Shown: positions 6,697 to 27,848 of the stretch, in pieces
Numbering within the stretch: position 1 is the stretch's first letter
How the letters are laid out: every line of letters starts with the position of its first letter
IMG/VR virus record: IMGVR_UViG_3300028189_000047
Span: 1 to 27,848 of that record
Origin: a virus
Direction: 5' to 3' (one strand)
DNA length: 27,848 nt
Position numbers and translations under genes: made by a program
The notes under the pieces: generated by a model
What the model saw: only the letters and a program-made list of their open reading frames with translations
Databases searched by the model: none
What the model was told of the DNA's origin: nothing

Positions 6697-9010
6697 CCCA
6701 GTTTCTCCCAACCTTTACATCAACTAATACATCACCTATTAATGTATTTTTCTCTAATATACTCTTACATTTCTCTATTAAATCTTCTTCACTTTGATGT
6801 ATTTTAAAATACACAGCATCATGTTTAGTATGTATTACTTTACTCTTTTTATATTTAAGATAGTTATGACAATCTAATACCTTTGGCCAAAATATTGCAG
6901 AACTACCAGCTTGAATAGGAAAATTAACAGATTGTCTAAATATATCACCGTCCATATCAAATATATTATACTGTTTAGTTATGAACCTTCTTTTCCTACC
7001 TACAATATCAACTATTTCACCATTAAATAATGCATCATCTCTAAACCCATTTAACATTTTCTTTACATTTTTAAAATTCCTAAAGAATCCTTTCTTTAAC
7101 TCTTCTGCAAACTCTGCTTCCATGTCAAATTCTATCGCAATACTTTCAGATCCTCTACCATATAATACACCATAAATAACACCTTTAATCTGTGTCCATA
7201 TATCTTCTGTATAATCTAAGTTAATTATCATCTTTGTGAGTTGTTGCTTTACATCTGGTGAATCTAGAATCTCTATTAATTTATTTTCCTTTGCTAAGTA
7301 CGCAGCGATCCTTAATTCAAACTGTTTATAATCCATACCAACAAACATAAATCCTTGTTCTGTAGTAAACAGTTCTCTATAACCACCTTCTCTTGGTATT
7401 GTATGTAGAGGTGATGTTAATCTACCACTAACTGTTCCATTAATATTATTAGAATTATGAATTTTACCATCATATTGTAATAACTTAAATAGATCTGTAT
7501 TATAATCCGGTGTATATGAACTCAAGTTTTCAGAGTATTCTAAAAGTTGTAACTCAGTTTTAATTAACTCAACTTTAGAATACTCCTTCTTATTAATCAC
7601 ACCTGTAAGATATGTTCCTAAACCTTTAACCAAATGTCTCAGTTCTAATAATAATTTAGGTGCTTCATGTTTATTTTCTAGTATTTTTAATGCTGCCTCG
7701 TTTGTACAAGGAGCACCAGTAGGTGTTTTAGATGGACATTTTAATTTCAAATCTTTATATAATACTTCACCAACTTGTTTTGTTGAGTTCCAATTTATAG
7801 GTGATATATCATTAAGTTTTCTTTTTATTCTAACACATTCAAGATTTTTATTTAAACTTAAATTCTTTAATCTATTTATATCTATAGTTATTCCTGTTGA
7901 TTCTATATCTATAAGCATTCTATTAACAGGCATAATAGTTTTAAAGAACAAATCTTCATAACCATCTATCACTATCCAATCCTTGAATATATTATACAGT
8001 CTAAATGTTACATCAGTATCAAAGTTATTATACAATGCTACCTTATTTATATCTTCTTTATCTAAAGCTAATTTACTTTCTAAATTATAATAAGGTACAT
8101 CTGTATATACTGATGCAAGCGTCTTTAAACCATGACTTACATTGTCGTTTAATATACCTATTGCAGCATAAGTATCAAAATACCAATTCTGTACTTCTAT
8201 ACCATACCTATTTTTAAGAAACAAAACATCAAACTTGGTATGTGATACAGATCTTATATTTAATGCAAATATCTTCTTATACCATTCTTGATTAAAAGGT
8301 ATACATATAGATGAACCTTCAGCAAAAGAGAAACTACAAGTTACTATATTATCATTATATGTATTCAGACCAGTAGTTTCTATATCAAAAGCATATGAAT
8401 TACATTTACTTACCAAATTATACACCTTTTGAAAATCTTCTGTATATATGTATTTTCTTGGTATAGGTTTATATTTACCTTCTAGTACACGAAACGCCTT
8501 ATATATATCTGATTGAAACTCAAACAAATTAGCTGGTCTCTTAATCAAAGAACTAGGATGATATGTAGGCATTATTCTTATACCTTCCCTAATATCATCA
8601 AACACATACCCCCTCACATCAGATATTTTCTTATTACCTAAGAAATATTTTGTAGCTACTGCACCTAAAGGGACAATAACTTTAGGTTTAATTTCAAATA
8701 TTTCATCTTCTAAATAATCCTTACATGCCAATACTTCAGGTGGTTTAGGATTACCCTTAGATAATTGCATACACTTTAAAAGTGTAGTCCTATATACATC
8801 ATTTAATTTATAACCTGCCTTCTCTACACACTCTGACAATAACATACCTATTACACCAGATATGGGTGACCCATATACAGCATCTTGTTGACCAATAACA
8901 TCACCAACAAACATTATCTTATTATCAGTATTACCTTCACCCATAATCCAATGATTCATTCTTTTATTTCTACTATTCTTTCCTAAGTGACATTTATCAC
9001 ACTTTCTCAT
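6686..9010 (-). CDS. Family A DNA polymerase with 3'-5' exonuclease and N-terminal uracil-DNA-glycosylase-like domain
   Basis: This is the replicative polymerase. Residues 1-180 resemble a family 4 iron-sulfur UDG: C4, C7, C80 and C96 as cluster ligands, VGDVIGQQDAVYGSPISG as active-site loop and PTYHPSSL near 149-156. The exonuclease shows exo I FDIETTGL (D209, E211), exo II SHTKFD (D261) and exo III YNNFD (D331). The polymerase shows motif A MDYKQFELR (D560), motif B KGVIYGVLYG (609-618) and motif C KHDAVYF (H730, D731). Motif C has Ala where Glu usually follows Asp. A similar UDG-polymerase fusion is known in SPO1-like phages. ATG at 9010 has AAGGAGA upstream. Confidence 0.93.
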   Translation of the reverse strand: MRKCDKCHLGKNSRNKRMNHWIMGEGNTDNKIMFVGDVIGQQDAVYGSPISGVIGMLLSECVEKAGYKLNDVYRTTLLKCMQLSKGNPKPPEVLACKDYLEDEIFEIKPKVIVPLGAVATKYFLGNKKISDVRGYVFDDIREGIRIMPTYHPSSLIKRPANLFEFQSDIYKAFRVLEGKYKPIPRKYIYTEDFQKVYNLVSKCNSYAFDIETTGLNTYNDNIVTCSFSFAEGSSICIPFNQEWYKKIFALNIRSVSHTKFDVLFLKNRYGIEVQNWYFDTYAAIGILNDNVSHGLKTLASVYTDVPYYNLESKLALDKEDINKVALYNNFDTDVTFRLYNIFKDWIVIDGYEDLFFKTIMPVNRMLIDIESTGITIDINRLKNLSLNKNLECVRIKRKLNDISPINWNSTKQVGEVLYKDLKLKCPSKTPTGAPCTNEAALKILENKHEAPKLLLELRHLVKGLGTYLTGVINKKEYSKVELIKTELQLLEYSENLSSYTPDYNTDLFKLLQYDGKIHNSNNINGTVSGRLTSPLHTIPREGGYRELFTTEQGFMFVGMDYKQFELRIAAYLAKENKLIEILDSPDVKQQLTKMIINLDYTEDIWTQIKGVIYGVLYGRGSESIAIEFDMEAEFAEELKKGFFRNFKNVKKMLNGFRDDALFNGEIVDIVGRKRRFITKQYNIFDMDGDIFRQSVNFPIQAGSSAIFWPKVLDCHNYLKYKKSKVIHTKHDAVYFKIHQSEEDLIEKCKSILEKNTLIGDVLVDVKVGRNWGEC

Positions 9011-9173
9011 ATCTCTCCTTTTTCATTAATAAGTATTTTTTTACTTGAACATCTGGTATATGTAGAGGTATTGTACTAACACAACCCCAACATAATTTCT
9101 CTGATTCTATATTAAACTCCCAAGAATCGTACTCATAATTAAGTCCACATACTGTACAAGTTTTAGTTTTCAT
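8997..9173 (-). CDS. HIPxxQ-tail zinc ribbon protein 1
   Basis: This 58-aa member of the window's repeated family has CTVCG, then LCWGC, then IPLHIPDVQVKKYLL. Two CxxC pairs should bind one zinc; the tail has the shared I-P-x-H-I-P-x-x-Q-x-x-K-Y-L pattern. ATG at 9173 is preferred to an in-frame GTG at 9182. Its end overlaps the polymerase start by 14 bases and it overlaps the next copy upstream, so it is co-translated with its neighbours. Function is unknown. Confidence 0.8.
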   Translation of the reverse strand: MKTKTCTVCGLNYEYDSWEFNIESEKLCWGCVSTIPLHIPDVQVKKYLLMKKERYEKV

Positions 9174-9330
9174 TTTTCTCACTTAAAAATAATAAATACT
9201 TTCTTAATTGATAAACATTTATATGACTAGGTACACTATTAACACAATCTACACAATAACCTACTATTTGTTCAGTATATTCATAGACTTGTTTTTCTTC
9301 TCCACAACATTTACATTTTAATATTCTCAT
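9163..9330 (-). CDS. HIPxxQ-tail zinc ribbon protein 2
   Basis: This 55-aa paralogue has KCKCCGEE, then YCVDC, then VPSHINVYQLRKYLL; the tail is more diverged, with N replacing P in HIP. The ATG at 9330 forms an ATGA overlap with the stop of the upstream gene. An in-frame TTG six codons earlier (9348) is possible but lies inside that gene and is not favoured. Function is unknown. Confidence 0.78.
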   Translation of the reverse strand: MRILKCKCCGEEKQVYEYTEQIVGYCVDCVNSVPSHINVYQLRKYLLFLSEKNEN

Positions 9331-9752
9331 TTTATATAAGGAATCCAATCACTACAGTTTAAAGATATTTGTGTTATTTCTTCACATTCTCTAAAGTCTA
9401 CACCAAAATCACCAAAATGTATACTATGTCCTTCTTTACATCTTTCATTTACTACAGAACAATCATAGCATACCCTATTATGTGTGGATAAGCTACTAAA
9501 TTTCTCACCACACTTCAAACAATTTCTTTTTTCTCTAACTATATCTCTAGGAGATATAGATTTTTCAGTACGAATATATGAACTTTTTCTGCTTTCACTT
9601 GCTAGTTTTCTGGTTTCCTTACATATGATTTCTCTATGTTTACGACAATATTGTTTATTGGATGATCTGGTAAGTAGCTCTCTACCACAATTTTCATATT
9701 TACAGTATGTTTTTCTTATTCTTTTAGTTAAAAATTTACCCTTTATAGCCAT
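9327..9752 (-). CDS. Zinc-binding protein with two Cys clusters, unknown function
   Basis: This 141-aa basic protein starts MAIKGKFLTKR. It has an N-terminal treble-clef-like cluster (YCKYENCGREL, then YCRKHRE), then a CxxC...CxxC ribbon (NCLKCGEKF, then VCYDC), and ends SDWIPYIK. The DWIPY ending recurs as NDWIPYF in the protein at 22743-23012, so this tail may be a shared small domain. It overlaps zinc ribbon 3 upstream by 17 bases and zinc ribbon 2 downstream by 4. ATG at 9752 has AGGAGG 5-6 bases before it. I do not recognise the family. Confidence 0.8.
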   Translation of the reverse strand: MAIKGKFLTKRIRKTYCKYENCGRELLTRSSNKQYCRKHREIICKETRKLASESRKSSYIRTEKSISPRDIVREKRNCLKCGEKFSSLSTHNRVCYDCSVVNERCKEGHSIHFGDFGVDFRECEEITQISLNCSDWIPYIK

Positions 9753-9915
9753 TTATCCTCCTAGCTTTTAATTTGCTTAATATGTATTTCTCATGTTGTT
9801 CTGGTGGAATGTGGTCTATAGGTATTAAATTAAAACATTTATTACAATACAAAGCTAACCACATACCAGTTTTTATAATATGATTTTCACCACAACCTTT
9901 ACATTTATCAATCAT
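9736..9915 (-). CDS. HIPxxQ-tail zinc ribbon protein 3
   Basis: This 59-aa protein begins MIDKCKGCGENH, continues with YCNKCFNLIP and then DHIPPEQHEKYIL, a full match to the family pattern. ATG at 9915 has AAAGGA 5-6 bases upstream. Stop is TAA at 9738-9736, so its end runs into the following gene. Function is unknown. Confidence 0.82.
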   Translation of the reverse strand: MIDKCKGCGENHIIKTGMWLALYCNKCFNLIPIDHIPPEQHEKYILSKLKARRINGYKG

Positions 9916-10108
9916 AATTTTCCTTTTTTAAAGATATTAAATATTTTTCATGTTGTTCTAAAGGTATATGTTTAGGTATAGAATAAAAACAAATATTACA
10001 ATATTGTGGAAGAAGATCTGGATCATGTATATTAGGATCATGTATATTAGGATCATGTATATTAGGATCATGTATAGATCCACAACACGCACATTTATAC
10101 ACACTCAA
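9908..10108 (-). CDS. HIPxxQ-tail zinc ribbon protein 4, with NIHDP pentapeptide repeats
   Basis: The first Cys pair (YKCACCG) and second (YCNICF) are separated by tandem copies of the pentapeptide NIHDP, then the tail IPKHIPLEQHEKYLI follows. The repeats come from a 15-bp DNA unit present 3.8 times, so the loop between zinc knuckles has expanded. There is no ATG: TTG at 10108 overlaps the stop of the upstream gene (TTGA), and GTG at 10102 is the alternative. Function is unknown. Confidence 0.78.
   Translation of the reverse strand: MSVYKCACCGSIHDPNIHDPNIHDPNIHDPDLLPQYCNICFYSIPKHIPLEQHEKYLISLKKENYD
10020..10076. repeat. 15-bp tandem repeat, about 3.8 copies
   Basis: The plus-strand unit GGATCATGTATATTA is repeated at 10020, 10035 and 10050, with a partial fourth copy from 10065. 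The unit is a multiple of three and lies inside a gene, so copy changes would alter protein length without a frameshift. Confidence 0.95.
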
Positions 10109-10359
10109 TTTAAGTTACTAAAAGGTGTAATCGTAGGTAGATCTAACACATACAAGTAATCATATTTAATTGTTTTTATTCCTAACCTCTTCTGAAATAT
10201 ACTAAATTCATAACAACTATACTGTGGTGATGAGAAAAATTCAACCATATGATCTTTAACCTTTTCTATAGTATAACCTTTTTTCTCACTGAAAGAACCT
10301 GTAAATTCTTCCCATTTTTTATCACCTATTTTTCTAATATTTACCTTATATTTATTCAT
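10105..10359 (-). CDS. Small protein of unknown function
   Basis: An 84-aa protein starting MNKYKVNIRKIGDKKWEEF, with alternating polar and aromatic residues that suggest a small alpha/beta fold. No motif is recognised. ATG at 10359 has an AGGAGA ribosome site. It is the first gene after the 450-base non-coding region, so it leads the transcript into the zinc-ribbon and polymerase operon. Confidence 0.75.
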   Translation of the reverse strand: MNKYKVNIRKIGDKKWEEFTGSFSEKKGYTIEKVKDHMVEFFSSPQYSCYEFSIFQKRLGIKTIKYDYLYVLDLPTITPFSNLN

Positions 10360-10389
10360 TTTTCATCTCCTGCAAAACTAAGAATGTTG

Positions 10390-10415
10390 TTGACATAATT
10401 CAATCTGTATGTCAA
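10390..10415. repeat. Inverted repeat TTGACATA-N10-TATGTCAA
   Basis: Two perfect 8-base arms (10390-10397 and 10408-10415). Each arm contains TTGACA reading inward, but neither has a good -10 at 16-18 bases, so an operator-like site is more likely than a promoter pair. It lies in the leader of the gene at 10105-10359. Confidence 0.6.
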
Positions 10416-10468
10416 GTGAAATATAGTTGTCATAAGTCCTGTAAAATGAGGTGTTATCTAAAATATGC

Positions 10469-10497
10469 TTGACACATTTTAAGATACTTGTTATAAT
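10469..10497 (+). promoter_or_regulatory. Consensus sigma70-type promoter on the plus strand
   Basis: TTGACA (10469-10474), a 17-base spacer and TATAAT (10492-10497) match the consensus at all 12 positions. It points rightwards while every gene in the window points leftwards. Predicted transcription start is near 10504, immediately before two hairpins. No plus-strand gene follows. Confidence 0.8.
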
Positions 10498-10506
10498 TAA
10501 TCTTTT

Positions 10507-10530
10507 AAGAAACTTGTTTCTTATTTTTTT
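10507..10530 (+). terminator. Terminator-like hairpin directly after the plus-strand promoter
   Basis: AAGAAAC, a 2-base gap and GTTTCTT form a perfect inverted repeat (as RNA a six-pair stem with a CUUG loop), followed by A and seven T. A transcript from the plus promoter would meet it within a few bases of its start. Confidence 0.5.
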
Positions 10531-10570
10531 AGCTTTTTTGAATGAACGTAGTGAATGGAAGCTAAAAAAA
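10524..10570. repeat. 12-bp perfect inverted repeat with 23-base loop
   Basis: TTTTTTTAGCTT (10524-10535) and AAGCTAAAAAAA (10559-10570) are exact complements. The loop contains GAATGAACGTAGTGAATGG. It shares its T-run with the preceding terminator-like hairpin. It may act as a bidirectional terminator, a cruciform or part of a small RNA. Confidence 0.65.
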
Positions 10571-10602
10571 TCACATCAAAATTTAGTTTTTAAAATAAAA
10601 AT

Positions 10603-10611
10603 ATTATAACA
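10603..10611 (-). promoter_or_regulatory. Possible extended -10 promoter towards the polymerase operon
   Basis: On the minus strand TGTTATAAT is an extended -10 element (TG, one base, TATAAT), without a clear -35. It could drive the gene at 10359 and the operon beyond, with a leader of over 200 bases crossing the plus-strand promoter region. In such AT-rich DNA chance matches are easy. Confidence 0.35.
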
Positions 10612-10767
10612 TAAAAAATTAAATTTTAAAATAAGTTTTTTAAAAAGTCATCATTTAATTTAGGAAAGGTACACACTTATTTTATTACAGTATACTCAGA
10701 ATCATTAAATCATTAAATCTTTTCATACAGATTTTAGAACAAAAATATTATATTCTCCTGTAAGAAT

Positions 10768-10798
10768 GGATGCTGTTAGCATTATACCAACAGCATCC
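10768..10798 (-). terminator. Hairpin after the band-7-like gene
   Basis: GGATGCTGTT (10768-10777) and AACAGCATCC (10789-10798) form a perfect 10-bp stem with an 11-base loop, 15 bases past the stop codon at 10814. It is much richer in GC than its surroundings. The following minus-strand bases are only partly T-rich, so termination is likely but not certain. Confidence 0.6.
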
Positions 10799-10813
10799 AA
10801 TTATAAAAATAAG

Positions 10814-11242
10814 TTACCTCTTTCCAGCTTCTAAAATAGGCATATTAGCTTCTGTAGGAATATAAATAACCTCACTACTTCCATCTTGTAGGCCTTTAAC
10901 CCATAGGTACTTTAAATACTCTTCGTTTTCTTTCAAGCTTTCACCTATAATCTCATTGGCTTCTGCAACACCTTTTGCTCTTTCAACTTCTGCATTAGCC
11001 CAACCTGTAGCTTTCACAATACTAGCTTCAGCATATAAAGATGCACTATCTCGTTCAGCTTTTGCTTCTTCTACAAGAACTTTCTTTGTCCATTCCTTTT
11101 CTCTCAACTCAGCTTGACCTCTCAAGTCCTGCTTGTATATCCTATATTTTGGAAATACATACATAGATACTGATACAATACCAATAATAAAAGCTAAAAT
11201 TATAGACAAGGTAATTATTACTGATTTAAGTTCTTTGTTCAT
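10814..11242 (-). CDS. Membrane protein with band-7/SPFH-like coiled-coil segment
   Basis: A 142-aa protein with one N-terminal membrane helix (SVIITLSIILAFIIGIVSVS, roughly residues 7-26), then a charged helix with repeated E-A-x-A patterns (EEAKAERDSASLYAEASIVK, then WANAEVERAKGVAEANEIIG), like the C-terminal helical part of prohibitin/HflC (SPFH) proteins; it ends with a short IYIPTEANMPIL segment. It is too short for a full SPFH domain. It would sit in the host membrane, perhaps as an oligomer. ATG at 11242 is chosen because GGAGG sits 6 bases upstream; the earlier ATG at 11254 overlaps that site. Confidence 0.75.
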   Translation of the reverse strand: MNKELKSVIITLSIILAFIIGIVSVSMYVFPKYRIYKQDLRGQAELREKEWTKKVLVEEAKAERDSASLYAEASIVKATGWANAEVERAKGVAEANEIIGESLKENEEYLKYLWVKGLQDGSSEVIYIPTEANMPILEAGKR

Positions 11243-11269
11243 AATATCCTCCATAAAATTAAAAAAAAA

Positions 11270-11374
11270 TTAACAATTAAAAGCAACCACAGTTCCTACA
11301 ACAACTATTGAAAAAATAACTAACCACTCACCACTTGACCTACCATAAAAAAGATTAACAAATCTATACAACAT
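11270..11374 (-). CDS. 34-aa membrane peptide
   Basis: MLYRFVNLFYGRSSGEW is followed by a hydrophobic segment (LVIFSIVVVGTVVAF) that would span the membrane once. AAGGAG sits 6-8 bases before the ATG at 11374. It is tiny but has a good ribosome site and lies in line with the operon. The sequence just upstream holds a broken gene with a similar start. Function is unknown. Confidence 0.6.
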   Translation of the reverse strand: MLYRFVNLFYGRSSGEWLVIFSIVVVGTVVAFNC

Positions 11375-11386
11375 AATACAACTCCT

Positions 11387-11484
11387 TTATAATATTATTA
11401 TAAATATAAAAACAACTATTAAAAAACTACTGACTGTTCAAAACTTGATAAACTTTCCATAAATTGAATAAGTTTATGTAACAT
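11387..11484 (-). pseudogene. Frameshifted paralogue of the 34-aa membrane peptide
   Basis: From ATG at 11484 the frame reads MLHKLIQFMESLSSFEQSVVF and stops at 11419. One extra T in a run of six T would continue it as LIVVFIFIIIL, a membrane segment ending at 11387. The layout matches the neighbouring peptide (MLYRFVNLFYGRSS plus a hydrophobic tail). It may be a decayed duplicate or a sequencing error. Confidence 0.45.
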
Positions 11485-11503
11485 AATAATATCTCATTAA
11501 AAA

Positions 11504-12412: not shown

Positions 12413-12421
12413 AATATTCTC

Positions 12422-15299: not shown

Positions 15300-16997
15300 C
15301 TAAGTTTTTAATTTCATACTATATAACTTTGTACCTTCTGCAAAAAGTACTGTTATACCATCTTTCATCAACAACATTGATGTGCGAATATCTTTACTAT
15401 CTACAACTCTAATTCTAGTATTGTTCAAATTATTAAAATAAATTTCCATCTGCCCATCTTCTACTATAGATGCCACAACTCCGTTCTCCAAAACTATAAA
15501 ATTATTATATTTATAATCTACATCTTTAGTGGTTCTCAATGAGTAATTATCATATTTTTCAGAAAATACAATTGTAACTCTATCATACATACCATCTTTA
15601 AAACATATTATCTGGACAACTTGTGAATCATGCTTTGCTTCAATAATCTTATAATCCTCTAATTCAGATATAGGTATTACATGGCATTGTGTGGACTTCT
15701 TTGTAGGTACAGGTATCATCAAATAAGGTTTTCCTAAAATACTTTGATAAACTAAACCAGAAAACATCTCACTAGAATTTGGCATTATATTCCAATAGGA
15801 TCTAACAGTTTTAATTAAAGTATTATTAAGTATTTTGAATCTCACCTCAGACAACATATTATTATATTGTAAAAATACACTATTGCCTACAACCATCATA
15901 TCATCTGCTCGTAATTGAATACTATCTTGAGGTAAATTTAACTCATTAGTTATTGATAAAATACCTTTATCTATGTGAACAAATATTGGCATTTGTGTAT
16001 TTTCTTCAATTACTAATTCAGTCTTTGTGGAAGAGAGAGTATGTTCTTTCTTATTAATTTGGATCTTACTTGATCCTTTTACTATGTTTTTATTTTCATA
16101 TCTTTTATAGTATAAGATATTTTCTGAAAAATCAAGATTCATAATCTCTTTAACAATAAATTTTTCTACTGAACTAATCACTTTAACTACACCAACTATA
16201 GGTATAAGCTTTCCCATATTTTCAGGAGGTGCTTCACGAACACCATTTTCAAACAACCTTTGAAACCATTCTAAATAGGTATCAGGTATAACATTAAAAT
16301 CTCTAACAGCAGATGGTAATCTTATATTAGAACCAAATATAGATGCATTTTCTTTCATTCGTTTTATTAATTCTTTTTTATTATATTGTGAATGCTTACC
16401 CTTATAAGGATGTATACCAATCAATAACTGACAAGTAAGTATTGCGAATGAAAACCAATCAGTATTTTCATTAAAACCTTTTGTTTGGTGGTCTTTAACA
16501 TAAGGCATTATTGCTGTTGCTGGATAACTTGGTGTTTGGTATGAATCAACATCTATAAAATAAGGACATTGAAACTTTGTATCTACTAATATATTTAATT
16601 CATTAAGATCAACAATAAGACACTTTTTAGAATGGATATTATTTATAACATTTCTCAAAACATTTATAAGATCTATAGCCATCTTATCAGATATATTGTT
16701 CATATTTCTGAAATCATTAGTAAACAATTTACAAATAGAAATAGTTTTCTTGATCCAATCCATTGTGAAACCTACATCAACCTGTCTACTATTACTGAGA
16801 ATATTTAAAGGTACTATGACTTTAGAATCAGTAATATTTTTTAATTCTAAAATCTTCCCATTAGCAATCATTTTACTACGGTCATGATAGATTTTATAAA
16901 TACTAGAACCTTTTCCGTAGACTTCACCCTCACCTCCTTTAGTTATAAAATCATTTTGAGTAAGGCTTATTTTTTTACCATTCTCATACACTATCAA
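15300..16997 (-). CDS. Serine/threonine protein kinase-like protein of a VWA/PP2C/kinase triad
   Basis: The N-terminal 280 residues are a protein-kinase fold: glycine loop KGGEGEVYG (20-28), Lys35 in IYKIY, catalytic loop VDLNELNIL (D130, N135; HRD is replaced by IVD), metal-binding DVD in place of DFG (D149) and TDWFSFAILTCQLLIGIHPY, the helix typical after the activation loop. The remaining 280 residues are strand-rich and may be a beta-propeller-like sensor; no family is recognised. Essential residues are present, so activity is plausible. TTG at 16997 follows GGAGG by 8 bases, and the gene overlaps the phosphatase by 14. Kinase, PP2C and VWA in one operon match the TerY-P triad of Ter systems. 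Confidence 0.82.
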   Translation of the reverse strand: MIVYENGKKISLTQNDFITKGGEGEVYGKGSSIYKIYHDRSKMIANGKILELKNITDSKVIVPLNILSNSRQVDVGFTMDWIKKTISICKLFTNDFRNMNNISDKMAIDLINVLRNVINNIHSKKCLIVDLNELNILVDTKFQCPYFIDVDSYQTPSYPATAIMPYVKDHQTKGFNENTDWFSFAILTCQLLIGIHPYKGKHSQYNKKELIKRMKENASIFGSNIRLPSAVRDFNVIPDTYLEWFQRLFENGVREAPPENMGKLIPIVGVVKVISSVEKFIVKEIMNLDFSENILYYKRYENKNIVKGSSKIQINKKEHTLSSTKTELVIEENTQMPIFVHIDKGILSITNELNLPQDSIQLRADDMMVVGNSVFLQYNNMLSEVRFKILNNTLIKTVRSYWNIMPNSSEMFSGLVYQSILGKPYLMIPVPTKKSTQCHVIPISELEDYKIIEAKHDSQVVQIICFKDGMYDRVTIVFSEKYDNYSLRTTKDVDYKYNNFIVLENGVVASIVEDGQMEIYFNNLNNTRIRVVDSKDIRTSMLLMKDGITVLFAEGTKLYSMKLKT

Positions 16998-17772
16998 AAT
17001 AAAAACCTCCTATGGAAATATCATCATAATGTGTTCCTAATTTTTTTATTGCTTTATTAGATCTACGCTTAACAAATTCTCCTTTAATATTTTTAAAGGA
17101 TGTAAATTCATTAACTACTTCTACTATATTATCTGCAAAATCACCTGAAAAAGATTCAATACCATCAGAAGCAATTAAAACAGCTTTAACATCTTTTTTA
17201 GGTATATTTATTTGAAAAGGTTTATTAACAGGTATATTATTATTGTACATATTAACACCTGCAAAATAACGTTTCTCAAACACATAAGGACTAAACTTTT
17301 TAAGATATTTTTCCACATCTTCTGAACTCTTCAAATAAGATAAATAGAAAGGCGCATTCTCTGCATATGAGTAATTCATAATTTGTACTCTACCATCTTT
17401 CATAATCTGAATAATACTACCATCTCCGAAAACTCTCACTAAAATTTGATCTTCAACAACCATTGCACACATCAAAGTAGCATCTAAACAAGCATGATCT
17501 AATCCCATTAAAGTCACTACATCTAAAGAAGGTTGTAAAACTGTGAATTTAGGCAAAGACAAACCTTTATCAGCTTTAAATTCTACAAACATATCATCAA
17601 GAAATGTTCTATGAGCTTGACTTACAAGTATTCTGGCGCCTATATCAGTATTATGAGAACTAGAACAACCGTCTGAAAGAATTACATAAGGAAATGGTTT
17701 TGTCCCATGCCTTATGTAATCCTCACAGATCGAATGAGCAGTTCCTTTAGTTAAAAAAGAATCTACTTGCAT
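16984..17772 (-). CDS. PP2C-family protein phosphatase
   Basis: A 262-aa metal-dependent Ser/Thr phosphatase. Motifs in order: EDYI (17-20), VILSDGCSSSHNTDIGARI with metal-binding D34-G35, LDATLMCAMV (97-106), VRVFGDGSI (112-120), VLIASDGIESF with D203, and HYDDISIGGF with D250/D251. All expected metal ligands are present. It would remove phosphates placed by the adjacent kinase, possibly on the VWA protein. ATG at 17772 follows the VWA stop by one base, so the two are translated together. Confidence 0.88.
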   Translation of the reverse strand: MQVDSFLTKGTAHSICEDYIRHGTKPFPYVILSDGCSSSHNTDIGARILVSQAHRTFLDDMFVEFKADKGLSLPKFTVLQPSLDVVTLMGLDHACLDATLMCAMVVEDQILVRVFGDGSIIQIMKDGRVQIMNYSYAENAPFYLSYLKSSEDVEKYLKKFSPYVFEKRYFAGVNMYNNNIPVNKPFQINIPKKDVKAVLIASDGIESFSGDFADNIVEVVNEFTSFKNIKGEFVKRRSNKAIKKLGTHYDDISIGGFYFDSV

Positions 17773-17773
17773 A

Positions 17774-18517
17774 TTAGAATCCAGCTATTTGGCTGGGACC
17801 TCCTGTTCCTATAGACTGGCTTTGGCTTGAAATACTTTGACTAACAAAGTCAGCTAATTGAGCAAGCTTACTTTCAGTAGCATCACCAACATTAATAAAC
17901 TTATCAAGATTGGCGTCCTGTTTAAAAGATTCCAAACATTGTTTGACAGTACTATCTTCAATATTAACACCTACAAGAACTGATATTAAGGATTCAATTT
18001 CTTCATCATGACCAACCTTCTTAATCCAGTTAGATATTCCTTCAGGTGTCATAGTTGATCTATTATCCATACCATCTGTAATAATGTACAAAGCACCATT
18101 AACATCAAAATCTTGATCTATAAGTGTTTTTGCAAAAGTTACTATAGATCCAACTCCTGAGTAAGCTGCATCAAATAATGCTGTCATACCTGATGGATTC
18201 AAACTTTTATAATCATCTATGTCTATAGTATTCAAAGTTTTAAATCCGTGAATCTCTTCCAACTCATGGTTGAATGAAATAAGTCTAATCATAAGATTCT
18301 CTGCTCTTGGTGACTTCTTACAAGCTTCTACAATTTTCTTAATAGTTTTTACCAACTCTGTATCAAAATCTCTAACACTTGATGATCTATCCACAGCTAT
18401 AACTACCAATGTGTACTCTGTTGCTCCTAAATCTTCAGGTCTAATACCTGAAAAATTAAAAGCACCAGTTCCAGGAATTGTTGATTTTACTAAGTCATCT
18501 CCCATTAAATTTGGCAT
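17774..18517 (-). CDS. VWA-domain protein (TerY-like)
   Basis: A 247-aa von Willebrand A-domain protein with a complete MIDAS metal site: DRSSS (D43, S45, S47), T112 in PSGMTALFD and D148 in YIITDGMDN. Such domains bind a divalent metal and mediate protein contacts. The C-terminal tail is Ser/Gln/Gly-rich (SQSISSQSQSIGTGGPSQIA) and may be a flexible or phosphorylated region. The start at 18517 has GAAAGG upstream. With the adjacent PP2C and kinase it forms a triad like TerY-P in tellurite/stress-resistance islands. It is soluble, with no membrane helix or signal peptide. Confidence 0.88.
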   Translation of the reverse strand: MPNLMGDDLVKSTIPGTGAFNFSGIRPEDLGATEYTLVVIAVDRSSSVRDFDTELVKTIKKIVEACKKSPRAENLMIRLISFNHELEEIHGFKTLNTIDIDDYKSLNPSGMTALFDAAYSGVGSIVTFAKTLIDQDFDVNGALYIITDGMDNRSTMTPEGISNWIKKVGHDEEIESLISVLVGVNIEDSTVKQCLESFKQDANLDKFINVGDATESKLAQLADFVSQSISSQSQSIGTGGPSQIAGF

Positions 18518-19368: not shown

Positions 19369-19757
19369 TCTCCTAGTAGTTTTGTTAGTTCTTCTTCAGA
19401 CTTACCTTTCAAACTTTCATCTTGCTTATCTGCAAGTATAGACATAATACGTTGTTTCTTCTCTTTATTCTTTTTCCTGTCGTCTACAGCTTTAGCTTCT
19501 GCCAACCTAACTTCTATAACTTTCTTAACAATATCAAATTTAGTTAATAGAATATTATTCTTACTTGTACTTTTTACTACGAAACTTTCCTCCTCATTTT
19601 CATTTATTTGTTTGTTAAGGCCTTTAGCAATATTATCTAGAGAAATATTAGATTTTCTAGATATAAGTGGTATATCCCACAAATCCTCTACTGTTATTTG
19701 TCCTACTGGTGTATTAAAACGATACTTATCTTTACTAGCTTTTTCAAAGTTCTCCAT
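19362..19757 (-). CDS. 131-aa phage protein of unknown function
   Basis: The protein starts MENFEKASKDKYRFNTPVG and has QITVEDLWDIPLIS, a basic helix DIVKKVIEVRLAEAKA, then DDRKKNKEKKQRIMSILADK and a C-terminal SEEELTKLLGEL. The Y-R-F-N-T...T-V-E-D-L-W-D-x-P-L pattern and the K-Q-R-I-M-x-I-L-A-D-K-Q-D-E helix are familiar from uncharacterised phage proteins, usually beside genes like the next two. It overlaps the next upstream gene by 14 bases. It may be a coiled-coil adaptor; no function is known to me. Confidence 0.78.
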   Translation of the reverse strand: MENFEKASKDKYRFNTPVGQITVEDLWDIPLISRKSNISLDNIAKGLNKQINENEEESFVVKSTSKNNILLTKFDIVKKVIEVRLAEAKAVDDRKKNKEKKQRIMSILADKQDESLKGKSEEELTKLLGEL

Positions 19758-20061
19758 TTTGTTTTCCTTTCATTTTTTTAAGTTCTGTAAGTTGTTTTTC
19801 ATAACTTTCTTTATTAGTATCACAACAATAAGATAAACTATTTTCTATATCTTCAATCATATCATCTATTGTAGTTATAGTTTCTTTACAAATAATAGGT
19901 GATTCTGATTCTAAATCTATATAACCATTACAAGGTTCACCCCAACCTTCATCCATGTTATTTTGATGCCACTGTGTTAATTCTTCTGATTCCATGAAGA
20001 TTGGGTAAGCACTACCATCACCACCACTTTCTACTGAATAATGTAATCTTAATTTGTACAT
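19744..20061 (-). CDS. 105-aa acidic phage protein of unknown function
   Basis: MYKLRLHYSVESGGDGSAYP, then FMESEELTQWHQNNMDEGWG with SPIICKETITT and a C-terminal coiled-coil helix. The G-G-D-G-S-A-Y-P and E-S-E-E-L...W...M-D-E-G-W-G motifs recur in small proteins of many phages and bacteria, always uncharacterised as far as I recall. It sits between the 676-aa protein and the 131-aa protein, probably one functional set. ATG at 20061 is 9 bases after the upstream stop, with an AAAGGAG site. Confidence 0.78.
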   Translation of the reverse strand: MYKLRLHYSVESGGDGSAYPIFMESEELTQWHQNNMDEGWGEPCNGYIDLESESPIICKETITTIDDMIEDIENSLSYCCDTNKESYEKQLTELKKMKGKQNGEL

Positions 20062-20070
20062 AATTCTCCT

Positions 20071-22101: not shown

Positions 22102-22119
22102 AACATCCTCCTTATAAGA

Positions 22120-22383
22120 TTAATAGTGTGATTTTTCTCTTACTATGTCGTACAACCTACCATGAATAGTTTGTGCAAAACCAATTATTTTCTTTCTTCT
22201 ATCTTTATCTTTAATTATATTTCTAAAAGCTTCTCTGAATGTACTCTCATTAACAAACATAATAAACTTCTCAACTTCTTCAATAGTCATACTGTTTATA
22301 CGATTATATGAATATAATTCGTCTCTTCTACTTTCAAGTGTTAATGTTTCTCCTGTTTCCTCACAATTAAATATCTTTTTCAT
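22120..22383 (-). CDS. Small helical protein of unknown function
   Basis: An 87-aa charged protein (MKKIFNCEETGETLTLESRR), with IEEVEKFIMFVNESTFREAF and a basic KDKDRRKKIIGFA segment. No motif is recognised. ATG at 22383 has AAGGAG upstream. It lies just ahead of the 676-aa protein. Confidence 0.75.
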   Translation of the reverse strand: MKKIFNCEETGETLTLESRRDELYSYNRINSMTIEEVEKFIMFVNESTFREAFRNIIKDKDRRKKIIGFAQTIHGRLYDIVREKSHY

Positions 22384-22411
22384 AATTTTCTCCTTATTCT
22401 ATAAATTAAAA

Positions 22412-22556: not shown

Positions 22557-22564
22557 ATTTTCTC

Positions 22565-22753
22565 CTATTTTATAAATTTAACAATCTCAACTCCGTGGAT
22601 TAATAAAAGTGGTGCTACATCTATTTTGAAAGTCTCTTCTTTAACCTTTTCCTTTCCACATGAACAATGTTTAAATAAGTTAATATTATCTACTGGTTCT
22701 ATCCATATGTTCCTATAATGTAAGTCACCTTCACTAAACTTTCTAAGTTTCAT
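22565..22753 (-). CDS. Small protein of unknown function with CxC motif
   Basis: A 62-aa protein (MKLRKFSEGDLHYRNIWIEP) with FKHCSCGKEK in the middle and a hydrophobic end (APLLLIHGVEIVKFI). One H-C-x-C cluster could bind metal with partners elsewhere. ATG at 22753 lies inside the end of the previous gene and has GGGAG upstream; the longer frame would read deeper into that gene. Confidence 0.7.
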   Translation of the reverse strand: MKLRKFSEGDLHYRNIWIEPVDNINLFKHCSCGKEKVKEETFKIDVAPLLLIHGVEIVKFIK

Positions 22754-23012
22754 CTTTATGTTTCTCCCAATAAGATTTAAAATAAGTGAACCATTGATCA
22801 TCTGGTATATGTTCAGGTTTTACAAAGTATGGTATCCAATCATTATAGTTTGATTCATTAGTAGATAATATTTTACCTGTATGGTGTACGCCAGTATTAC
22901 CAAAACCAGAATATTTATTATTACCGTTATAGAATAATAAACTTCCATCTTCATTAACTCTATATGCGTGATTTTGACACGTAGATTTTTTTATTGCTTT
23001 TTGTAGTTCCAT
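22743..23012 (-). CDS. 89-aa protein with HIPxxQ-type tail but no zinc ribbon
   Basis: The body is Gly/Asn-rich (SLLFYNGNNKYSGFGNTGVH), followed by SNYNDWIPYFVKPEHIPDDQ and WFTYFKSYWEKHKDE. The tail H-I-P-x-x-Q-W-x-x-Y resembles the end of the small zinc-ribbon proteins, and NDWIPYF resembles the end of the 141-aa zinc protein at 9327. It has only one Cys and no CxxC pair. This links the tail to a different head, so the tail may be a separate binding element. The start is 1 base after the primase stop. Confidence 0.72.
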   Translation of the reverse strand: MELQKAIKKSTCQNHAYRVNEDGSLLFYNGNNKYSGFGNTGVHHTGKILSTNESNYNDWIPYFVKPEHIPDDQWFTYFKSYWEKHKDET

Positions 23013-23013
23013 T

Positions 23014-23820
23014 TTATTTCTTTATTTTGTTTAGGCATAATTTCAATATCTCATTTTCAGTAAGGTCACCAGGATCACCAGATTTTAATTGAACTGGAAT
23101 AGTATTAAAATACTCTGATAATTCATCACATAACTCTTGTTCGTAATCTCTCTTAGAATGTATGTTTGCATCGCTATCCAACATAACAAATACTGTTTTA
23201 ACATTTAGAAATGCTGTAAGTAGTCTCTTTTGTTCTTTACTTAACTTCTTACCTAATATACATATACCATAATCAGGTACTTTCAATATATCAAACACAC
23301 CTTCAAAAATAATAACAAAGTTTTTATATGATTTTAAATCCTTTATAGCAAATATACCTAAACTCTTTTTACCAAATATAAGGTATTTAGGAATCCTATT
23401 ATATACAGATCTACCTTGCCAACCTACAATATTATTACCACTCTTAATAGGAAACACTATTCTACCATTTAGAGGTCCTTGTTGTGAGTACATACCACCT
23501 AACTTAGTACATAACTCAATAGAAACACATCTTGATTTAATATACTCTATAGTATAATGATTAGATTTCAAAGATTCTATAGGTATAAATCCATTTGGAT
23601 CAATCAATTCTTTACTGTCTTGTACAAATTTTTTGTTTCTAGAAACTGGTTTAGTAGTTTTTCTATTTTTTAGTATATTTAGTATACCTTTATTTTCTAC
23701 TATTCTACCAGAGTATCCACATTTCCAGCAATGATAGATCATCTTCTGTACATTTATCCAAAGATGATCTTTATCATCATCACAATAAGGATTTATACAT
23801 GTAACTTTTATATCATCCAC
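23014..23820 (-). CDS. DnaG-type DNA primase
   Basis: The primase makes RNA primers for lagging-strand synthesis. A short N-terminal zinc domain uses C8, C13, C31 and C34 (CINPYC, then CWKCG). The RNA-polymerase core includes GRIVFPIKSGNNIVGWQGR (119-137), and the TOPRIM region shows IFEGVFD with E173 and VMLDSDAN with D215 and D217. At 268 aa it is shorter than bacterial DnaG, lacking the helicase-binding C-terminus, as in several phages. The start is GTG at 23820 with a GGAG site about 9 bases upstream. It is encoded two blocks downstream of the DnaB-type helicase. Confidence 0.88.
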   Translation of the reverse strand: MDDIKVTCINPYCDDDKDHLWINVQKMIYHCWKCGYSGRIVENKGILNILKNRKTTKPVSRNKKFVQDSKELIDPNGFIPIESLKSNHYTIEYIKSRCVSIELCTKLGGMYSQQGPLNGRIVFPIKSGNNIVGWQGRSVYNRIPKYLIFGKKSLGIFAIKDLKSYKNFVIIFEGVFDILKVPDYGICILGKKLSKEQKRLLTAFLNVKTVFVMLDSDANIHSKRDYEQELCDELSEYFNTIPVQLKSGDPGDLTENEILKLCLNKIKK

Positions 23821-23972
23821 TTTTTATTACTCCAATATTTTTTAAATTGTTCTTTTGGTATGTGATTTGGAATTAATTCTTCTCTACAATTAAAACATAT
23901 ACCAGTTTTTTTTGATAACTTACAATATAAAATTTTATAACACATTTTACAAATAATAGTACAATGTTTCAT
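23808..23972 (-). CDS. HIPxxQ-tail zinc ribbon protein 5
   Basis: A 54-aa family member: ICKMCYKI, then GICFNCREELIP, then NHIPKEQFKKYWSNKKW. ATG at 23972 makes an ATGA overlap with the stop of zinc ribbon 6, and its own end overlaps the primase start by 13 bases. Function is unknown. Confidence 0.8.
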   Translation of the reverse strand: MKHCTIICKMCYKILYCKLSKKTGICFNCREELIPNHIPKEQFKKYWSNKKWMI

Positions 23973-24133
23973 AATATTTTATATTTAGAATTTAAATATT
24001 TTTTATGTTGTTTTAGTGGAATGTATTTAGGTATAATCTTATCTCTACACACAGCACAAACACAACCACATATATAAGATTCGCTACATTCATTAATTAT
24101 ATTTTCTTTACAACATTTACATTTATAATACAT
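23969..24133 (-). CDS. HIPxxQ-tail zinc ribbon protein 6
   Basis: A 54-aa family member: YKCKCCKEN, then CVCAVCRDKIIP, then KYIPLKQHKKYLNSKYK. The tail has Y in place of the conserved His of HIP. Extra Cys residues (CGCVCAVC) might give a second zinc ligand set. It overlaps the membrane-anchored zinc protein upstream by 11 bases. Confidence 0.8.
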   Translation of the reverse strand: MYYKCKCCKENIINECSESYICGCVCAVCRDKIIPKYIPLKQHKKYLNSKYKIL

Positions 24134-24632
24134 ATTTCTTTTTAAATAATTTTAAATAGTTTTTATTTTGGCTTAATGGTATATGTGATGGTATTTTATA
24201 CCATAAAGTTTCATAACATTTTACACATTTAATAAATATTTCATCATTATTTGTAATATTACCATATTTCAAACCATTAATTATAATATTACCATATTTA
24301 AAACCATTAAAAATTTCAAAATCTACATTTTTTGAAATTGTAAGTTTTTTATTACATTTTTTACATATTAATTTAATATTTTTATGAAAACCAATACCAT
24401 ATTTAAATTTTTTAGTGAAAAAATATGTAAGTAAAATACCAATAACATTTACTAATGTAAGTAAAATTCCAAAATATATTGAGTAAATTTTATTTGATTC
24501 AAAAAAAGATTTACTCATACTAAAACCCCAATTATTTTGTTCATATACAAACAAAGAGTTATATATTATAAAAAATATTATTGGAGTACTACATATATAG
24601 TAATATAAAAAATAGTAGATATACATATTCAT
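24123..24632 (-). CDS. Membrane-anchored HIPxxQ-tail zinc ribbon protein
   Basis: A 169-aa fusion. Residues 4-30 and about 50-73 are hydrophobic (IYYFLYYYICSTPIIFFIIY, then IYFGILLTLVNVIGILLTYF) and should span the membrane. The rest is a zinc ribbon with LICKKCNKKL and KCVKCYETL, and the tail IPSHIPLSQNKNYLKLF. A 10-aa internal repeat (FKYGNIIING, then LKYGNITNND) lengthens the loop between the Cys pairs. ATG at 24632 forms an ATGA overlap with the HNH gene stop. It implies at least one family member works at the membrane. Confidence 0.72.
   Translation of the reverse strand: MNMYIYYFLYYYICSTPIIFFIIYNSLFVYEQNNWGFSMSKSFFESNKIYSIYFGILLTLVNVIGILLTYFFTKKFKYGIGFHKNIKLICKKCNKKLTISKNVDFEIFNGFKYGNIIINGLKYGNITNNDEIFIKCVKCYETLWYKIPSHIPLSQNKNYLKLFKKKYVL
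24255..24309. repeat. Imperfect 30-bp tandem duplication
   Basis: Two 25-base copies (24255-24279 and 24285-24309), 30 bases apart, differ at one position. They encode FKYGNIIING and LKYGNITNND in the loop of the membrane-anchored zinc protein. Confidence 0.85.
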
Positions 24633-25057
24633 TTGTTATTTTCTTCAGAAAGTTTTTCTAATTTAATTTTTATTTCTTTCTCATTACTAGAAGTCTTAAT
24701 ACATTTTTTATATACGTCATGTTCTGTAAGATTGTATTTATTTTTCATAGTTTCCATAGACATACCAAACTTCTTAACATATTTACTATTATAGTCTTTT
24801 GATCTTGGTCTACATCTACTACATAACATTTCTAAATTAATTATAATATGATTATCTTTGTCACCATCTTTATGTGTTGCAAATAGTGGAACTTTCTTAC
24901 CACATTTCTCACATAAACTACCTACTTGTTTCATCTTTTCTTTTCTATTAAGTTTTAATTGGTAATGGTTTTTATAATAAGAATTAACACCACCTGACCA
25001 TCTACCATTCTTTTCACCACTAACTGCTACACGATCTATCTTATTTATGTTATCCAT
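24629..25057 (-). CDS. HNH endonuclease
   Basis: A 142-aa HNH nuclease. Zinc is held by C49, C52, C79 and C82 (CEKC, then CSRC). The catalytic core is FATHKDGDKDNHIIINLEM with H62 as the general base and N74. The C-terminal half is basic and helical (MKNKYNLTEHDVYKKCIKT), probably for DNA binding. Such free-standing HNH genes often act as homing endonucleases in phages; here it lies within a zinc-ribbon cluster. ATG at 25057 has AAGGGG. Confidence 0.87.
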   Translation of the reverse strand: MDNINKIDRVAVSGEKNGRWSGGVNSYYKNHYQLKLNRKEKMKQVGSLCEKCGKKVPLFATHKDGDKDNHIIINLEMLCSRCRPRSKDYNSKYVKKFGMSMETMKNKYNLTEHDVYKKCIKTSSNEKEIKIKLEKLSEENNK

Positions 25058-25065
25058 AATTCCCC

Positions 25066-25317
25066 TTAAAAGTGTTCATTCATTTCTTTTTCTAAATCAT
25101 CATCTTTATTAATTACTCTATCTAAATCTACATTATTATTTTTAAACTTTTTAGTTACTCTTTCTATATACTTATTTGCTATCATTCTATGTAGTCTATT
25201 TGTGGAGTTTATAGCAAACCAATCAAGATATTCTAAATCTACATCTTCTAATTTACAATCTTTAAATTTGCCGAATGGCATAATAAAATCATCTATTTGT
25301 TCATTTAGACTTTTCAT
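25066..25317 (-). CDS. DUF3820-type small protein
   Basis: An 83-aa protein with IMPFGKFKDCKLEDVDLEYL and DWFAINSTNRLHRM, the M-P-F-G-K-x-K-x-x-x-L-x-D-V...Y-L-x-W pattern of DUF3820 proteins, a small family common in phages and annotated without firm function (sometimes linked to exonuclease-like contexts). The C-terminus is acidic. ATG at 25317 has GGATAAGAG upstream. Confidence 0.72.
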   Translation of the reverse strand: MKSLNEQIDDFIMPFGKFKDCKLEDVDLEYLDWFAINSTNRLHRMIANKYIERVTKKFKNNNVDLDRVINKDDDLEKEMNEHF

Positions 25318-25492
25318 CTCTTATCCTTTCATTTTTCTTAATCTTTGCTTTTATATATTTAGAAACTGTTATTTTGGAATATGATTGTGTACGAGTTTGT
25401 GTATATCAAAAAAAACACGTTCTACATATTTTACTATTAGGTAGAAAATCACATATTGACACATCTTTATAACAAAGTAAACATTTTCTCAT
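25301..25492 (-). pseudogene. Degenerate HIPxxQ-tail zinc ribbon gene
   Basis: From ATG at 25492 the frame reads MRKCLLCYKDVSICDFL, then KICRTCFF and stops at a run of eight T. Dropping one T restores DIHKLVHNHIPK, then a TAA where Glu is expected, QF, and after a second shift KYIKAKIKKNERI. Two frameshifts and a stop show true decay, not a single read error. Overlaps the stop of zinc ribbon 7 (ATGA). Confidence 0.75.
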
Positions 25493-25662
25493 ATTATCTT
25501 TTTAAATTCTAAATATTTCTTATGTTGTCTTGATGGTATGTGGTCTGGTATTATTTTATCTCTACATTTTAAACAAACACCAATTAAAAATGAACGTGTA
25601 AAACTTTTATGAATACATAACGCACATAATATACAGTATTTATATTCATAGTTAGTTTCCAT
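25489..25662 (-). CDS. HIPxxQ-tail zinc ribbon protein 7
   Basis: A 57-aa family member: YCILCALC, then VCLKCRDKIIP, then DHIPSRQHKKYLEFKK. The start at 25662 (METNYEYKYC) is chosen because the longer frame back to 25776 runs through the preceding gene in another frame and makes no family sense. It overlaps that gene by 11 bases. Confidence 0.8.
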   Translation of the reverse strand: METNYEYKYCILCALCIHKSFTRSFLIGVCLKCRDKIIPDHIPSRQHKKYLEFKKII

Positions 25663-25828
25663 ATTTTTTATCCATGTATTTTGACCATTGTTCTTTTGGT
25701 ATATGGTCTGGTATTTTAGATTCAACAAAACAAATATAACAATAACCTTTATGTTCATCATTAGAGTTACTATCAAAACCTACCTGTTGTGTATTACATT
25801 TTTTACACAAATAATATTCATTATTCAT
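25652..25828 (-). CDS. HIPxxQ-tail zinc ribbon protein 8
   Basis: A 58-aa family member: YLCKKCNTQ, a longer loop (VGFDSNSNDEHKG), then YCYICFVESKIP and DHIPKEQWSKYMDKKYG. ATG at 25828 overlaps the helicase stop (ATGA), so it is translated right after the helicase. Function is unknown. Confidence 0.82.
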   Translation of the reverse strand: MNNEYYLCKKCNTQQVGFDSNSNDEHKGYCYICFVESKIPDHIPKEQWSKYMDKKYGN

Positions 25829-27060
25829 ATTAGTTTAGCATCATGAATTCTAACTTTAGCTAAGTCAACAATACAATCCACTACTCCACCTTTAGGTCCA
25901 TTTTTCTGTTTGCTTATTATGTATCTTAATCTATTACCTGCTCTTTCCTCTTCTGTCTGAACAGCAGTAATTACAATATGTGATATATGTGCTTTACCTT
26001 TACCACCATATATATGTTGTAACCCTACAAATTCCTTACCATAACTAGCTGAAGATGTTTGTGTGGCTGTCCAAACAGGAACATTTAACTCAGATGCCAA
26101 TGCTTTTAATTCCCTAGATGAATCTTCCACTTCTTGCCATCTGTCACTTCTCTTATTTCTTCCACCTAATTCATCTAAATAATCTACTACAATTAAATCC
26201 ATTTTATCCATACCAGCTATAACTGACCTTATTTTACCTACTGTACATATACCAGATGAAAAATCCTTCACATATAATTTATTTTTATGTTCAAGTACTT
26301 TATTTTTAATTCTTTGTGAAGCTGTTGGGTCTCTCCTAAAAGTTATAAATTCTTGATTTGAGAATAAAGCATCAAATCTTTGCATCACAGTATCCATAGA
26401 ATCTTCTAGGGTTATAAACAATACCCTAAAACCTAAATGAACAGCACCCCAAGCAAAATTTAATAAAGTCATAGATTTACAACCACCAGTTTGAGCAGAA
26501 ATTAAACCAAATTCACCTGGAGTTATTCCACCACCAATAATAGTATCTAAACTAGTAATAGATGTTGGTACTGGCTTTTGACCAAGACTTCTTTTGTGTA
26601 ATGATGATACGTATTCAAGTGGTTTATCTTCTTCAGGATCATATTTATTAGCATCTTTTAAATCTTCTAATAGTTTTTCAATTTTATTTAAATTAAAATT
26701 TTGACTAGCACTTGATAATATTTTTCTTAACTTACGTTCTTTTATGTGATTACCTATTTCAGACTTTAAAAATTTAATATCGTATTTTGTATCAAATATA
26801 TCAATTATTAATCCTGATATTATAGGGAATTCTTCGTTAGAGAAATTTTGTTTAGTTAAAGTTTTGGATAGTAAATATTTAAATATATCAAAAGGTATTA
26901 CATTATTATACTTATTATAATATGTTTCTAATATAGAATAAAAATATTTATAGTATTGATTTTTAAATATTTCATCATCAATATAACCTATTGTTTCTTT
27001 TAAAAATTGTTTATCTTTTAGTAGTGCTGATATTAATAGTTTCTCAAATTCATCCGTCAT
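25825..27060 (-). CDS. DnaB-type replicative helicase
   Basis: A hexameric 5'-3' helicase that opens the fork and binds primase. The N-terminal 140 residues are the helical domain; the ATPase shows SLDTIIGGGITPGE (170-183), a variant Walker A SAQTGGCKS (188-196), TLEDSMDTV (218-225) and Walker B LIVVDYLDEL (289-298). The C-terminal WTATQTSSASYG and SHIVITAV match the later DnaB motifs. At 411 aa it is compact. ATG at 27060 has AAGGAGA. Its stop overlaps a zinc-ribbon gene, and a frameshifted zinc-ribbon gene overlaps its start. Confidence 0.9.
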   Translation of the reverse strand: MTDEFEKLLISALLKDKQFLKETIGYIDDEIFKNQYYKYFYSILETYYNKYNNVIPFDIFKYLLSKTLTKQNFSNEEFPIISGLIIDIFDTKYDIKFLKSEIGNHIKERKLRKILSSASQNFNLNKIEKLLEDLKDANKYDPEEDKPLEYVSSLHKRSLGQKPVPTSITSLDTIIGGGITPGEFGLISAQTGGCKSMTLLNFAWGAVHLGFRVLFITLEDSMDTVMQRFDALFSNQEFITFRRDPTASQRIKNKVLEHKNKLYVKDFSSGICTVGKIRSVIAGMDKMDLIVVDYLDELGGRNKRSDRWQEVEDSSRELKALASELNVPVWTATQTSSASYGKEFVGLQHIYGGKGKAHISHIVITAVQTEEERAGNRLRYIISKQKNGPKGGVVDCIVDLAKVRIHDAKLI

Positions 27061-27239
27061 AATTCTCCTTTATATATTCTACTTTATATTTATGTCTTTG
27101 TTTTTCTGGTATATGTTTTGGTAATGTTATTATTTCATAGTAAATATTAGAAACACATTCACCACATATACCAATATTAACTTCTCCTGTACATGTAACA
27201 CATGTACAATTATCATAATTTACATTTTTTACATTTCAT
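27050..27239 (-). pseudogene. HIPxxQ-tail zinc ribbon gene with a frameshift at A6
   Basis: ATG at 27239 overlaps the upstream stop (ATGA) and reads MKCKKCKL before stopping. Dropping one A from a six-A run joins it to NCTCVTCTGEVNIGICGECV and LPKHIPEKQRHKYKVEYIK, ending at 27050 inside the helicase start. The second frame has no ATG, GTG or TTG of its own. It could be a broken gene, a sequencing error or a site of programmed frameshifting. Confidence 0.6.
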
Positions 27240-27703
27240 AATTTTATGTTTTTAAGTTCTGGTGTTTTCTCAATTTCTTTCTGTGCTAAAAACAACCAAT
27301 TTTTAGGATAATCTTTTAACTTACTACATCTGAAATAATAGTAGAATATATCAAATTGCAATGCTTCTTCTAATGTGTAACCATCTTCACATAATTCACG
27401 TAAATATGATTCTTGAGTTCTATTTATTTCTTCACTTGTTATACAACTAATATGATCTAAATATCTTTGCATAGCTACTTTAGATAGTAGTTGGTTAGGA
27501 TAAGGCTTATATCCTTTAGCACTAAACTGTATCCTTATAAAATCATCTGGTGATATATCTTTCTTTTTAAGTTTTTCATTTAGCTTAGAGAAAGTTTTTC
27601 TGTGTTTTACATAAGCATCACCTCTTCTACTTATTTTATAGAAACGAGAATGTTTTTCTCTTACTAACCTCTCATATAGATTTATTAGATCTAAAGTATT
27701 CAT
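27236..27703 (-). CDS. Helical protein of unknown function upstream of the helicase
   Basis: A 155-aa basic, helical protein (MNTLDLINLYERLVREKHSR) with RGDAYVKHRKTFSKLNEKL, an aromatic stretch (FDIFYYYFRCSKLKDYPKNW) and a charged C-terminus. No motif is recognised. Its place right before the helicase operon raises the possibility of a helicase loader or replication factor, but this rests on position only. The start codon overlaps the end of another zinc-ribbon fragment. Confidence 0.7.
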   Translation of the reverse strand: MNTLDLINLYERLVREKHSRFYKISRRGDAYVKHRKTFSKLNEKLKKKDISPDDFIRIQFSAKGYKPYPNQLLSKVAMQRYLDHISCITSEEINRTQESYLRELCEDGYTLEEALQFDIFYYYFRCSKLKDYPKNWLFLAQKEIEKTPELKNIKL

Positions 27704-27848
27704 TTTCTATTCTTTTCTATAAAAGTTTTAAAATATTTATGTCTTTGTTTTTCTGGTATATGTTTTTGGTATATGATAATCAGAGAATTTATTTATATTA
27801 AATTCATTTTCACATTCTTTACAAATTATAAATATATTTTTTTTAAAC
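27700..27848 (-). pseudogene. Partial HIPxxQ-tail zinc ribbon gene with frameshift at A5
   Basis: The gene runs in from the right edge. The frame encodes IICKECENEFNINKFSDYHI then PKTYTRKTKT and stops. Removing one A of AAAAA gives HIPKHIPEKQRHKYFKTFIE, ending at 27700 over the next start codon. The tail DNA (about 35 bases around 27738-27772) is almost identical to that of the copy at 27050, differing by just this extra A. Confidence 0.6.

Follow-up and report, generated by a model that had tools for sequence, protein, structure and literature searches.

An apparently lineage-restricted family of small phage proteins joined by a C-terminal tail

The window, 27.8 kb from the record of an uncultivated phage, carries 12 tail-bearing ORFs according to an iterated profile, most of them mini-genes with two CxxC pairs (a C4 head) followed by the tail IPxHIPxxQxxKY, which has 13 residues (39 nt). 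All nine intact copies listed in an earlier note on this DNA are present, on the minus strand. The first (8997-9173) overlaps the start of PolA and is followed by copies at 9163-9330 (tail VPSHINVYQLRKY), 9736-9915 (tail IPIDHIPPEQHEKY) and 9908-10108, the last with a TTG start and an NIHDP repeat in its loop. The copy at 23808-23972 overlaps the primase start, and the one at 23969-24133 forms an ATGA junction with the next mini-gene. This is a C4 and tail unit with a long loop (24123-24632), fused to a hydrophobic, probably membrane-spanning N-terminus. Two more lie in tandem: 25489-25662 has an 11-nt overlap with the preceding copy, and 25652-25828 has an ATGA overlap with the DnaB stop. In eight aligned intact copies, nine residues are invariant (C, C, C, C, P, I, Q, K and Y). 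Overlap of every copy with core replication genes, as first described, is too strong a statement: some do overlap PolA, DnaB or primase, but the rest overlap one another, small zinc proteins or unknown genes. Among the neighbours is a small Cys-rich protein with an NCxxCGxxFxSxxxHNRxCxxC motif (9327-9752; 5629-6012 in the longer contig described below), which is also found in relatives and matches phrog_13335, of unknown function (E 5e-5).

The three broken copies of the earlier list were also found, all on the minus strand. Frameshifts were seen both in the decayed copy at about 25315-25492 (listed at about 25301), which shifts frame at a run of T and whose tail contains stops, and in the otherwise complete C4 and tail copy at 27050-27239, which lies between dnaB and an unknown gene and has an ATGA at either end. 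A programmed frameshift was considered for the latter, with nothing beyond the sequence itself in its favour, and the copy was treated as decayed. The third, at 27699-27848, is cut by the window end; its reading frame is shifted here and open in the longer contig (36835-37113). The tails of these last two copies are identical at 38 of 39 nt. A thirteenth copy (22743-23012, minus strand), absent from the earlier list, bears the tail on a non-CxxC 'YNDW' head. A possible distant relative is the PolA-linked CxxC..CxxH protein at 6448-6711 (minus strand), which ends in IPERQREYL and has orthologues in four relatives (G005, G007, G008 and G009). This resident gene is co-linear, but it was not accepted as the ancestor of the family, with an hhalign probability of just 21.8%.

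The family is larger than these copies indicate. Contig G001, 66.7 kb long, stems from the same phage, with 98.5-99.4% identity in the blocks aligned with the window. It has 37 family ORFs at a domain E of 1e-4 or less in the iterated HMM, all on the plus (coding) strand. None of 744 minus-strand ORFs of this contig matches the profile; therefore, the matches are not due to chance. The earlier proposal of a paralogue family thus stands, while its size of about twelve was understated, with about 37 copies per phage. The copies span about 5.2-55.6 kb, the replication and nucleotide half of the contig, and their neighbours read as genes for ribonucleotide reductase, a nuclease, a UvsW-like helicase, DnaB, primase and PolA. 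The profile matches nothing in the terminase/portal region (the virion module), including contigs that extend it.

Among the 37 ORFs, 23 have the CxxC-CxxC head, seven have a degenerate third or fourth ligand and seven have other or partial heads, so that 14 heads are degenerate or unrelated and the tail is the true common element. Seven tail copies are entirely without a C4 site. The length of the loop ranges from 8 to 42 residues while the tail stays, and three proteins with '[ND]DW' heads align with the C4 family across the tail only (hhalign 95.5%, 23 columns). The earlier observation that heads and loops vary while the tail is kept was therefore borne out, but the CxxC pairs do not mark the family as a whole.

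Searches of Pfam, PHROGs, NCBIfam and PDB sequences gave no credible family; the weak, scattered matches are mostly to single members, a different family each time, and no known family absorbs the copies. This agrees with the earlier statement that no described family has this tail. DNA patterns for IPxHIPxxQxxKY and a relaxed version, run on 2.9 million viral contigs, match this phage lineage only. Since the relaxed version finds about 15 of the G001 copies, a phage outside the lineage with several copies would probably have been detected. Tail-pattern matches in the genome collection (Bordetella, Bacteroidales and others) were judged to be chance, with profile E values of 0.003-0.02 or none, and one lies inside an 849-aa ORF; a further scan with a DnaB profile gave no new lineage member. 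The family thus has no description in the libraries and papers covered, and within the collections searched it is confined to one uncultivated lineage. Membership of known families was not supported. For HNH/endonuclease VII there were just single-member matches to PHROG endonuclease VII (E 0.007-0.04), and the 23-sequence family alignment shows no HNH pattern between the Cys pairs. For DksA/TraR there was no Pfam match at E <= 0.1, and the new proteins usually have few residues before the first Cys, in contrast to the N-terminal coiled coil of that family. For Gin/CsfB (PF10764) the best score in the phage contigs was 8.9 bits against a cut-off of 27.

An AF2 model built from the same 23 sequences has a pLDDT of 79.5, below 90 throughout, and contains short strands, a helix at 29-32 with C28 and C31 of the second CxxC at its start, and a long C-terminal helix at 41-57 that starts with the tail's P-x-x-Q. 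Foldseek matches are weak (E above 0.2), and the PDB list is led by LIM treble clefs at E above 1. The model of a YNDW head has low confidence (pLDDT 53). The C4 copies probably bind zinc, judging by their Cys pattern, and the predicted head fold may tentatively be called treble-clef-like. In the term 'zinc ribbon' used before, the CxxC-CxxC pattern is real, but the predicted fold is nearer to a treble clef than to a classical zinc ribbon. With a C4 head, a basic C-terminus and a location among replication genes, these proteins might be modulators that use the zinc knob and the basic helix to bind nucleic acid, DNA or RNA, and so regulate replication, translation or the transcripts of the phage, much as has been guessed for the zinc-ribbon expansion of phage G (PMC7824862). 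We consider this unlikely, although worth keeping in mind: the best-kept residues of the tail (I, P, H, I, P, Q, Y) form no known nucleic-acid-binding signature, the basic residues past the tail are the least conserved part, no DNA-binding family was matched, and the copy at 24123-24632 is fused to a probable membrane segment.

The organization of the mini-genes differs from that of other genes. In counts from 31 mini-genes and 53 other genes, which are approximate since genes were hand-picked from the ORF map with mechanical start choice, 77% of mini-genes overlap the upstream gene (38% of the others) and 74% overlap the next one (40%). The frequent ATGA overlap reported earlier is confirmed (39% versus 6%), and a Shine-Dalgarno-like motif precedes 39% of mini-genes versus 77% of the others. 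More overlap and fewer Shine-Dalgarno motifs imply translational coupling. The overlaps at both ends would also suit translational spacers, genes that mainly couple their neighbours or set their expression ratio and whose peptide matters little. This seems very improbable to us, as such spacers would need neither four Cys nor a tail sequence nor constraint at the amino-acid level, and in G007 and G008 the orthologous neighbours manage with no mini-gene ahead of dnaB. That the genes are expressed early is presumed only from where they lie.

Members occur in four relatives with about 70% nucleotide identity (G005, G007, G008 and G009), in some cases at the same junctions; no members were found in the other relatives within the stretch covered. 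Copy number differs among close relatives. Before the UvsW-like gene there is one copy in G001, three in tandem in G007 and two in G008, the second of which is a chimaera that starts like copy 2 of G007 and continues like its copy 3. Tail-only remnants occur as well, and tandem duplication, chimaera formation and loss are all seen among the relatives. In the window, a 24-nt block (TATGAATATAAATACTGTATATTA) lies in frame in the second tandem mini-gene (25489-25828), as it does in L007, while in G001 it is in the first (38979-39324, L008); this shift may be either a real paralogue exchange or an assembly artefact. Divergence between the otherwise near-identical phages peaks in two small genes (22120-22383 and 19744-20061; 42240-42512 and 44562-44888 in G001), with 36 of 90 and 34 of 108 codons different, which points to allele replacement.

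Constraint on the proteins was estimated from dN/dS. The value near 1 that the earlier note had set against the family was not obtained: one simple orthologous pair gives 0.29, and UvsW and DnaB of the same two phages give 0.16-0.20. Between tandem paralogues dN/dS is 0.7-2.3, where the values above 1 depend on a small number of synonymous sites and are only suggestive. Polymorphism of the mini-genes between window and G001 is sparse, one synonymous and one non-synonymous change, too few for a selection test. Several tail pairs are identical at 35-38 of 39 nt with random flanks, a maximum reached in 0 of 500 codon-column shuffles, and same-codon use in the tail is above expectation. Overall, the segments of the tail are only weakly linked to each other (correlations about 0.1). 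The near-identical pairs are consistent with occasional short-patch exchange, while the weak linkage led us to reject the tail as strictly a mobile DNA element. The same pairs and codon use, together with the decayed and tail-only copies, could be explained by near-neutral or selfish micro-genes that duplicate and decay at junctions with little benefit, tolerated since ATGA overlaps pass translation on, and whose tail is kept by recent copying. We regard this as improbable, because the orthologous pair is constrained, because Cys and tail residues are retained over the deep divergence of G005, G007 and G008, and because the weak linkage argues against a DNA element that has spread recently.

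A comparable expansion is known. Phage G has about 35 zinc-ribbon paralogues, for which roles as specific transcription factors or structural DNA-binding proteins were suggested (PMC7824862). We recovered 36 zinc-ribbon places in Bacillus phage G (NC_023719; gp32, YP_009015343, and paralogues), to be compared with the 37 ORFs of G001; in both phages the Cys-rich paralogues number in the tens and vary in their body but keep their C-terminal end, which in five aligned phage G copies is a conserved, helix-like KENDRYL. However, the tail-family profile matches nothing in phage G, and hhalign between the two family alignments gives 0.9%. The phage G head is CPxC..CxxxC, without an IPxHIPxxQ tail, and most copies form one tandem array with larger open frames, whereas the new family is scattered over gene junctions. 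The array, at 353-371 kb, holds about 28 paralogues with open frames of roughly 180-230 aa. By size and fold, the nearest functional analogue may be CsfB (Gin) of Bacillus subtilis, a small protein with a C4 treble-clef zinc finger and then a C-terminal region, which binds and inhibits sigma factors (PMC5890618). A weak PDB profile match to 5n7y (CsfB/Gin) was found at E 0.13, but Gin proteins lack the IPxHIPxxQ tail. The N-terminal zinc-binding domain of ClpX is likewise a C4 treble clef with similar Cys spacing, but it has no such tail; it was rejected, with no Pfam match at E 0.1 and an hhalign probability of 4.6% against three approximate sequences, a weak test. CsfB is a single-copy host gene. 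The internal proteins of T4 are diverse and small and share one short capsid-targeting sequence, which is N-terminal and cleaved, on late virion proteins. They are an analogy only through the shared short tag, since the tag of the new family is C-terminal and its genes are in the replication region.

We tentatively prefer to read the family as lineage-restricted and evolving by birth and death, a repertoire of small zinc adaptor proteins that are made early and dock through a helix common to all. We find this reading plausible but short of probable; zinc binding, the fold, early expression, docking and action on the host are what we infer in it. Each protein would usually be a small C4, treble-clef-like zinc knob made of CxxC, a variable loop and a second CxxC at the start of a short helix, which IPxHIP would join to the basic C-terminal helix starting at PxxQ. 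The conserved IPxHIPxxQxxKY helix would be the handle by which all members dock onto a single partner, a macromolecular machine of phage or host encountered during early infection, while the variable loop or head would contact changing second targets. Produced mainly by translational coupling from the preceding gene, the set may form a diversifying repertoire of host-takeover or counter-defence adaptors. In favour of this docking repertoire are the tail common to C4 and non-C4 heads, the varying loops, the lack of copies in the virion module, the low dN/dS of the one orthologous pair, the copy-number differences and chimaera among relatives, the enriched overlaps, the tentative fold and, as a functional precedent, CsfB; the tail could instead be structural and not a docking surface. 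The roles offered in the earlier note, as host-factor binders, transcription or translation modulators or a set against host defences, likewise stay at the level of suggestions. A bolder proposal, possible but rather doubtful, is that the 13 residues are a portable, phage-specific docking label on unrelated heads, which brings fast-changing tiny proteins to one machine, with short-patch swapping of heads and tails.

Hypervariable phage regions have many tiny orphan genes without a functional handle, and here about 37 of them are tied by one tail. A single tail-binding partner, if found, would account for a large share of the orphan genes of one phage. Phage G and the present phage are two unrelated examples in which a single phage has tens of Cys-rich paralogues that end in a fixed C-terminal stretch, which suggests a recurring strategy.

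Other genes of this phage also have unusual features. RecA (2711-4783 in the window) contains an intein with a LAGLIDADG-like domain, and the UvsW-like helicase of G001 (33722-35875, L008) exceeds that of G007 by about 280 aa, which look like an intein with an HNH-type part. At 15300-18517 of the window there are adjacent genes for a protein-kinase-like protein (below the Pfam cut-off), a PP2C phosphatase and a protein that is vWA-like by eye, a triad reminiscent of phosphorylation modules of the TerY type.
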